The position numbers and the translations under genes are program-made. Of a stretch of 64,000 bases of DNA, positions 57,097 through 58,938 are shown in pieces. The stretch is from NCBI RefSeq assembly GCF_003387075.1, contig NZ_QUMQ01000001.1, positions 6,634,001-6,698,000 on the forward strand. Direction: 5' to 3'. Positions within the stretch are counted from its first letter, which is position 1. Each line of letters starts with the position of its first letter. A model generated the notes under the pieces. The model did not search any database. It had not been told where the DNA came from and saw only the letters and a list, made by a program, of their open reading frames with translations. Source of the DNA: Asanoa ferruginea. GTDB taxonomy: Bacteria; Actinomycetota; Actinomycetes; Mycobacteriales; Micromonosporaceae.

Positions 57097-57825
57097 ATGG
57101 CACTGGAGGGGCAGCGGGTGCTGCTGGTCGGCGGCACGTCCGGGCTCGGCCTCGCGGTCGCCCAGGCGGTCGCCGCGCGGGGCGCGACACCGGTCGTGGC
57201 GTCGCGCAACCGGGACCGCGTCGAGCGGGCCCTCAGCGCGCTGCCGGCCGGTGCGGAAGGCGCGACCGTCGACCTCACCGACGCGACCTCGGTGGCCGGG
57301 CTGGCCGAGCGGGCCGGTGCGATCGATCACCTGGTCTACACGGCCGGCGAGCCGCTGGCGCTGACCATGCTGGCCGACCTCACGACCGACGTGGCCGCCC
57401 GCTTCTACGCGACCCGGCTGTTCGGCGCGCTGGCCGTGATCCGGGCGGTGCGCGCCGCCGGCACCCTGAGCACGGCCGGCAGCGTGGTGCTGACCGGCGG
57501 AAACGCCTCGCAGCGGTCGGCGCCGGGCTGGGCGCTCGGCGCCAGCATCTGCGGTGCCATCGAGGCGCTGACCCGGCAACTCGCGCTGGAACTCGCGCCG
57601 GTGCGGGTCAACGCGATCGCGCCCGGGGTCACCCGCAGCCCGATGTGGGCGGCGGGCATGAGCGACGACGAGCAGCGGGCGATGTTCGACCAGCTCGCCG
57701 GGTCGCTGCCGGTCGGCCGGGCCGGCGAGCCGGAAGACGTCGCGCTGGCCTACGTCTACGCGATGGAGCAGCCGATGGCCACCGGCACCGTGCTGCTCGT
57801 CGACGGCGGCGCGGTGCTGGTCTAG
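57097..57825 (+). CDS. SDR-family protein lacking the catalytic Tyr-x3-Lys
   Basis: 242 residues with a complete Rossmann cofactor motif GGTSGLGLAVA, DLTD for adenine binding, and the PGVTRSPM and VLLVDGGAVLV ends of classical SDRs. The YxxxK site is absent: the aligned segment reads LGASICGAIEALTRQLALEL, with Gly/Ser in place of Tyr and Ala in place of Lys; NNAG is replaced by YTAG. It may bind NAD(P) without SDR chemistry or act by an altered mechanism. An IS481 element is inserted immediately after the stop, within the former CTAG junction with lacZ. Confidence 0.88.
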   Translation: MALEGQRVLLVGGTSGLGLAVAQAVAARGATPVVASRNRDRVERALSALPAGAEGATVDLTDATSVAGLAERAGAIDHLVYTAGEPLALTMLADLTTDVAARFYATRLFGALAVIRAVRAAGTLSTAGSVVLTGGNASQRSAPGWALGASICGAIEALTRQLALELAPVRVNAIAPGVTRSPMWAAGMSDDEQRAMFDQLAGSLPVGRAGEPEDVALAYVYAMEQPMATGTVLLVDGGAVLV

Positions 57826-57826
57826 G
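57821..57826. repeat. Target site duplication, left copy (TCTAGG)
   Basis: Six bases directly before the left terminal repeat. They contain the TAG stop of the SDR gene (57823-57825). An identical copy follows the right terminal repeat. Confidence 0.93.
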
Positions 57827-58932
57827 TGTGCTGTCCAGGGAGGTTGGTCAAGGTTGTGTGACGAGACGATCTAGGTCTTGAAAGGGTGAGGCCTCCGGTC
57901 GTGAAGTGGAGCTGTCGAAGAACCGCTTCACCTGACCTGGAGGCCTCGTGGCACACGCTAACGCAGCCCTGACCCCGAAAGCACGCCTCAAACTCGCCCG
58001 CCTGGTCGTCGATGAGCGCTGGACGGTCTCCGCGGCCTCCCGCCGATTCGATGTCTCCTACCGCACCGCGAAACGGTGGGTCGACCGGTATCTCGCGATG
58101 GGAGCCGCGGGTATGCAGGACCGGTCCAGCCGCCCACTCCACACCCCGACCCGCACCCGCCGCGACCTGGTCCGCAAGATCGTGTACTTGCGGTGGCGGC
58201 ACCGACTCGGCCCTGTCGCGATCGCCGCCCGTCTCGGGATGGCCGCCTCCACCGTGCACGCGGTCCTGGTCCGTGCCCGGATCAACCGGCTCTCCCACAT
58301 CGATCGACGCACCGGTGAACCGATCCGCCGCTACGAACACGACACCGCGGGCGCCCTGATCCACGTCGACGTCAAGAAACTCGGCAACATCCCCGACGGC
58401 GGCGGCTGGCGATACGTCGGCCGCGTCCAAGGCAAGCGACACCGCGCCGCGACCACCGGCAAGCCCCGCAGCGCCTACCGCAACCCGAAGATGGGCACCG
58501 CCCACGTCCACACCGTCATCGACGACCACTCCCGCGTCGCCTACGCCGAAATCCACAACGACGAGACCGCCATAACCGCAGCTGCAGTCTTGACCCGCGC
58601 AGTGGCTTGGTTCGCCGCCCGCGGCGTCCGAGTGCAAAGGGTGCTGTCCGACAACGGCTCGGCCTACCGCTCCCGCCTCTGGCGCGAGACCTGCACCCAG
58701 CTCGGCATCACCGTCAAGAAGACCCGCCCCTACCGGCCCCAGACCAACGGCAAGATCGAACGGTTCCACCGCACCCTTAACGCCTGGGCGATCGATCGGT
58801 TCTACCCCACCGAACACCACCGCCGCGCGGCCCTACCCCGATGGCTGCACTTCTACAATCACCACCGACCCCACACCGCGATCGGCGGCCAGCCACCCAT
58901 CACCCGCCTTACCAACCTGGCTGGACAGCACA
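57827..58932. mobile_element. IS481-family insertion sequence, complete, 1106 bp
   Basis: Terminal inverted repeats TGTGCTGTCCAG...AGGTTGGT(C)AAGG are at 57827-57853 and, inverted, 58907-58932, differing at two bases plus one indel. Perfect 6-bp target duplications TCTAGG flank the element (57821-57826 and 58933-58938), matching the NCTAGN, 6-bp duplication known for IS481. The single transposase gene is intact. Identical duplications suggest a recent insertion. It interrupts no gene: it lies at the shared stop region of the SDR and lacZ. Confidence 0.95.
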
Positions 58933-58937
58933 TCTAG
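57948..58937 (+). CDS. IS481-family transposase
   Basis: 329 residues. Residues 1-120 hold two HTH units ([41 protein letters not shown]) for end binding; the rve integrase core has the DDE triad Asp141 (IHVDV), Asp235 ([10 protein letters not shown]) and Glu271 (GKIERFH), with the D-35-E spacing. C-terminal [17 protein letters not shown] is the family signature. The frame runs through the right terminal repeat, and its TAG stop (58935-58937) is made by the flanking target duplication, outside the element. It appears functional. Confidence 0.96.
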
Positions 58938-58938
58938 G
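58933..58938. repeat. Target site duplication, right copy (TCTAGG)
   Basis: Six bases directly after the right terminal repeat. They contain the transposase stop (TAG, 58935-58937) and, on the other strand, the lacZ stop (TAG from CTA at 58934-58936). Confidence 0.93.

Follow-up and report, generated by a model that had tools for sequence, protein, structure and literature searches.

How does an insertion sequence come to lie between two convergent genes in such a way that three genes, its own transposase gene and both neighbours, all find their stop codons in two copies of one six-base word? The question is raised by a window of 64,000 nucleotides of the Asanoa ferruginea genome, in which the insertion separates a gene for an SDR-family oxidoreductase from a lacZ-type gene (Table 1). 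We consider it very probable that this is an ordinary IS481-family insertion with target-borne stops, and that its safe landing is mostly a by-product of target choice, with some contribution from selection.

Table 1. Features at the insertion site, in positions of the window
Feature	Position	Strand	Remarks
SDR-family oxidoreductase gene, 242 aa	57097..57825	+	PF13561; C-terminus like that of orthologues
Left 6-bp target duplication TCTAGG	57821..57826	.	contains SDR stop TAG, 57823-57825
IS481-family insertion sequence, 1106 bp	57827..58932	+	four identical copies in the genome
Left terminal inverted repeat	57827..57848	+	20/22 positions equal to right repeat; 25-base end comparison also made
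Transposase, 329 aa	57948..58937	+	stop codon beyond the element, in right duplicate
Right terminal inverted repeat	58911..58932	-	doubles as code for transposase C-terminus TNLAGQH
Right 6-bp target duplication TCTAGG	58933..58938	.	contains transposase TAG (+, 58935-58937) and lacZ TAG (-, 58936-58934)
LacZ-type glycoside hydrolase family 2 gene, 969 aa as called	58934..61843	-	PF02836, PF02929

The ends of the element, TGTGCTGTCCAGGGAGGTTGGT and ACCAACCTGGCTGGACAGCACA, can be read directly and form the inverted repeats of Table 1. IS481 of Bordetella pertussis, the namesake of the family, uses NCTAGN targets with a 6-bp duplication. The element has the IS481 layout, with a length of 1106 bp, a single transposase ORF, repeats that start with TGT (TGTGCTGTCCAG and CTGGACAGCACA) and a 6-bp NCTAGN duplication, TCTAGG on both flanks. 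Its transposase matches the NCBIfam model NF033577 (transpos_IS481) with an E value of 1.7e-95 and 319.8 bits against a cut-off of 224, and the Pfam domains PF00665 (rve) and PF13011 (LZ_Tnp_IS481) both score above their cut-offs. An earlier note, made from the letters alone, had assigned the element to IS481 with an NCTAGN duplication of 6 bp, had derived the transposase stop from the right duplicate and had held both neighbours to be intact; all of this is borne out, by the family matches, by the position of the transposase TAG outside the element and by the presence of the SDR and lacZ stops in the left and right copies, respectively.

The transposase frame runs to the last base of the element and ends CAC ATC TAG, with the A as the final base of the element; in this phase (..A/NC/TAG, slashes marking the boundaries), any NYTAR target gives a sense codon followed by a stop. 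The residue that the target thereby adds after GQH is predicted to be I, T or S in the four own copies. Since the duplicated word includes the TAG and CTAG is palindromic, a gene that ends there, on either side, keeps its stop, and both SDR and lacZ do keep theirs through the duplicated CTAG. Read outward, the left repeat gives TNLPGQH, and an antisense ORF (57822-58820, 332 aa) also stops in the left duplicate; this ORF is probably spurious.

The host genome, a single contig of 9.07 Mb, contains four sequence-identical copies of the element and one relative that is 73% identical. The presence of identical copies at separate sites suggests recent movement. Their perfect 6-bp duplicates are CCTAGA, TCTAGG, CTTAGA and GCTAGG, the third of which differs from CTAG and is still 6 bp, and the transposase stop lies inside the right duplicate in 4/4. 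All four copies touch the stop of a gene judged real, and two of the four sit at two-gene convergent overlaps. Apart from the window copy (L002), these are L001, at a convergent overlap of ORFs of 262 and 255 aa that are both coding-like by codon score; L003, whose duplicate CTTAGA contains the TAA stop of a Tex gene (PF16921, S1 domain) and which borders on a tandem repeat array; and L004, where a 493-aa ORF ends, by its look a putative alpha-glucosidase-like enzyme, and where a second ORF is doubtful. The array at L003 (positions 1121-1476 of that locus, at 4.74 Mb of the same genome) consists of units of ∼67 and ∼86 bp, which repeat a stretch resembling the 3' end context of the Tex gene (CTTAGAGCAGCCCGG).

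Dependence on a target-borne stop was followed through the family in 229 loci, drawn from the best 80 of 581 confirmed candidates, from family genomes, and from a phylum-wide PF13011 set with its multicopy genomes; two plasmid records were added, out of 2953 plasmid records matched. We left out 9 duplicate sites, 7 loci whose transposase is truncated or partial, 6 that gave no tblastn hit and 45 that lacked clean ends or a 6/6 duplicate, so that 162 distinct sites with inverted repeats and a perfect 6-bp duplicate were counted, the four own copies included, in a sample that is mostly Actinomycetota. The transposase stop lies in the duplicate at 157 of these 162 sites (154 TAG, 3 TAA), and the dependence on the duplicate that the earlier note had expected such a survey to reveal is thus found. 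Copies with a stop inside the element, which it had named as evidence to the contrary, do occur, at 5 of the 162 sites (L069, L171, L247, L251, L258); the remaining 157 are stopless. Because the four identical copies and the 157 clean sites show the same arrangement, the duplicate-borne stop is not a matter of chance. Among the best 80 of 581 candidates, the stop was in the duplicate in 76; the four exceptions are L069, with a TAG within the repeat, and L088, L098 and L108, which do not end at the repeat in that frame. Duplicate-borne stops were found down to ∼38% identity, and also in a Rhizobium ISRel2 copy at 42%; therefore the trait is broad within the IS481 family, with few lineages that have their own stop.

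The target cores of the 162 sites are CTAG in 151, TTAG in 6, CTAA in 3 and GTAG in 2. The lineages with internal stops, together with L244, form a natural comparison group for the need of a target stop. These lineages might have looser targets, but the sites are few: four of the five are at CTAG and one is at GTAG, and L244, uncounted because of its unequal duplicates, is also at CTAG words.

To classify sites by gene ends we used a home-made codon model trained on this genome (71% GC), which is weaker on lower-GC loci, retained down to 0.53. The gene calls themselves are computational throughout. One further row, labelled ‘short’, was excluded, which left 161 insertions. The background consisted of CTAG sites sampled from 20 segments of 20 kb plus the window in the host genome (464 kb) and from 33 segments of 20 kb from nine relatives. 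In the host genome, 36 of 132 sampled CTAG sites are at gene ends and 16 are inside genes. Insertions fall on a gene stop in 74 of 161 cases, compared with 66 of 270 sampled CTAG sites (odds ratio 2.6, P = 7e-6), and both counts are too low, since the classifier overlooked the Tex gene at L003, which it scored as ‘neither’. The excess is seen in the family set (21/51, P = 0.017 against the 270) and among the best 80 of 581 candidates (30/60, P = 1.5e-4 against the 270); the phylum set gave 23/50. Against the flanks of the same best 80 of 581 (8/89), the P value is 2e-8, a comparison in which mobile DNA likely depresses the background.

The target itself extends past CTAG. G at -3 and C at +3 have a frequency of 0.55 at insertion sites compared to 0.30 in the background, and of 0.50 compared to 0.26 when non-stop sites only are considered; the insertion sites were drawn from a larger number of genomes than the background and have a somewhat higher GC content (0.69 versus 0.655), which may inflate this preference. 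We built a target score from positions 1-6 on both sides, trained on non-stop (‘neither’) sites only. With this score, the odds ratio for stops drops from 2.89 to 1.60 (log-odds 1.06 to 0.47) for 150 CTAG insertion sites and a background of 271, which contains the rebuilt empty site of the window that the background of 270 does not; the score is somewhat favoured, as its training sites are reused in the regression. When ‘stop’ is added to the score, the log-likelihood rises by 1.77 units (likelihood-ratio P ∼0.06). About half of the stop excess, in log-odds, goes with the extended palindromic target preference. When sites were divided, in a cruder check, by their outer bases (G at -3, C at +3), the stop excess remained strong where a single one of these matched (29/54 versus 28/113, P = 4e-4), and thus target preference does not account for all of the excess; it was weak where neither matched (14/40 versus 29/134, P = 0.10) and where both did (30/56 versus 10/24, P = 0.46).

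An alternative is that insertion is blind except for CTAG and that the pattern is due to purifying selection against gene-breaking insertions alone. In its favour, coding insertions are missing from the best 80 of 581 candidates (0/60 versus 23/270, P = 0.011), and the odds ratio of 1.6 that remains after the target score also fits such selection. However, neither the family set (5/51 versus 23/270) nor the insertions as a whole (9/161 versus 23/270, P = 0.34) show a depletion in coding DNA, and insertions that are neither on stops nor in coding DNA still differ from the background at -1 to -3 (G at -3, 0.50 versus 0.26, with more genomes among the sites). We regard selection as the sole cause as unlikely, and prefer the reading in which target choice does most of the work and selection a further part.

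Still less probable, in our judgement, is an active search by the element for gene ends or convergent pairs as a haven, for example through supercoiling or terminator structure, with CTAG as merely the final docking word. The stop excess of 74/161 versus 66/270, its persistence in one stratum of target match (29/54 versus 28/113) and the fact that each of the 4 own copies meets the stop of one or more genes judged real would all agree with such behaviour. Against it, the odds ratio falls from 2.89 to 1.60 with a score derived from non-stop sites (likelihood-ratio P ∼0.06), and 78 of the 161 insertions are, by the classifier, neither at a stop nor in coding DNA. Nor are overlapping gene pairs enriched once a site is on a stop. 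Two-gene overlaps make up 17/161 insertions and 15/270 background sites (P = 0.06), but among stop sites they make up 17/74 and 15/66 (P = 1.0), which rules out a special targeting of overlapping stop pairs; the earlier note had suggested surveying for insertion at CTAG stop overlaps, and no such enrichment among stop sites emerges. Active seeking of gene ends is thus unlikely, and safe landing seems to follow in the main from target choice, to which selection adds its share.

In this preferred reading, the transposase inserts at a palindromic target of NCTAGN type and duplicates 6 bp. In the GC-rich host genome CTAG often stands at gene ends and seldom inside genes, and the wider target preference likewise fits a gene-end context; from the statistics, we infer that this bias and this preference together bring many insertions onto stops without damage to the neighbours. 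Purifying selection probably adds to the pattern.

What the site looked like before insertion can be approached through relatives. The earlier note had the SDR and lacZ genes converge on a common CTAG before the element arrived, and the predicted uninterrupted junction is GTGCTGGTCTAGGGCTTTACC. On the SDR side this is supported: in two genomes that belong to a different genus, the SDR orthologues (L237, L239) continue as GTCTAGGGCCTGACC, near the predicted continuation of the SDR end, GTCTAGGGCTTTACC, and the remaining SDR relatives examined end in TGA, TAA or TAG in differing contexts. On the lacZ side, the orthologues from the genus's five other genomes (80-85% identity) all end in TGA, with no SDR match beside them within the 1.5 kb fetched, and the lacZ gene of the window (end region 58934-58960) ends in a TAG that comes 1-2 codons later, which makes its C-terminus 1-2 residues longer than in orthologues. 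A search with SDR DNA and LacZ protein gave no adjacent pair in six genomes of the genus, including this one, and the uninterrupted junction that the earlier note had hoped to see in close relatives, searched for as a joined empty site of 520 bases, was not found in 200 family genomes (a subset of a larger group; three candidates were scored in each). The empty site, and with it the SDR-lacZ pair, is thus supported on the SDR side only; the SDR end may already have had TCTAGGGC, and lacZ may have become its direct neighbour in this lineage ahead of the insertion. That the three-gene coincidence is an artefact of ORF calling, with one neighbour not real or ending elsewhere, is very hard to credit: long chance ORFs are plentiful in GC-rich DNA, but SDR and LacZ have strong Pfam matches that extend into their C-terminal parts, and these C-termini align with orthologues whose ends fall within 2 codons of the same place.

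Some relatives appear to lack a stop at both ends. Among the best 80 of 581 candidates, 15 elements longer than 1.5 kb have a perfect duplicate, and in 7 of these (L109, L117, L121, L128, L135, L136, L137) a long ORF on the opposite strand exits via the left repeat and finds its stop in the left duplicate (TAG in five, TAA in L128 and L136); the seven are not independent, as L109, L121 and L128 look alike, and so do L136 and L137. These ORFs range from 249 to 454 aa and, by Pfam, comprise three HxlR and four WYL/HTH regulators; only two of the seven (L117, L135) pass the codon score. In the other 8 elements the open frame at the left end is at most 66 codons, and in L119 an opposite-strand ORF of 249 aa ends at a stop of its own, a short way into the repeat. 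There is good reason to think that part of the IS481 family, namely cargo-bearing relatives of ∼2.5 kb, is stopless at both ends, with an outward HxlR or WYL gene closed by the left duplicate; the last codons of this gene would be the left inverted repeat and its stop would lie in the left duplicate. Such regulator genes with borrowed stops are possibly new and worth follow-up.

Outside the IS481 family, Fournier et al. are said to have reported in 1993 that IS870 of Agrobacterium depends on a CTAG target for the stop codon of its large ORF. Within it, the borrowed stop is real and has already been described. For ISLxc2 and ISLxx4 of Leifsonia xyli, the available part of PMC2516522 places the transposase stop within the host insertion site. 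As described there, ISLxc2 resembles the element of the window in its length (1105 bp), its repeat TGTGCTGCTCAGGGACGTTGGT (19/22 positions) and its NCTAGN duplicate, but differs from it by an early in-frame stop in the transposase; that part of the paper gives no account of neighbour genes ending in the duplicate for either element. According to the available part of PMC6794481, the right duplicate of ISRe46/TnRErm46 in Rhodococcus equi gives the transposase its TAG, and target-gene stops are preserved as well. Unlike the element of the window, TnRErm46 is described there as a 6.9-kb transposon with cargo, in which the left repeat itself supplies a TGA to the left-end gene. In the same account, some insertions of TnRErm46 fall inside genes (aadA9, sul1), and thus the landing is not always safe; a convergent two-gene case does not appear in that part of the paper. 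Safe landing, which the earlier note had offered as an inference of its own, is therefore not new, since the target-borne transposase stop and the spared target-gene stops are both in print in the parts of PMC2516522 and PMC6794481 available. Among the literature matches listed, with subscription journals mostly outside, no title concerns one duplicate that closes two convergent neighbours and a transposase, or a family-wide count of borrowed stops.

The 157 of 162 sites give a broad-sample count, for the family, of a trait that the available parts of PMC2516522 and PMC6794481 treat element by element. They also allow two ideas to be kept apart, the element's need for a target stop and its seeking of harmless sites. 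If the two-ended arrangement of the cargo-bearing relatives is real, both of their terminal genes would be complete only in a YTAR target, and one insertion at a convergent stop overlap would serve four genes. For annotation, automatic gene callers are expected to set transposase stops outside the element, and genes that seem to end ‘in’ an insertion sequence may be intact neighbours.
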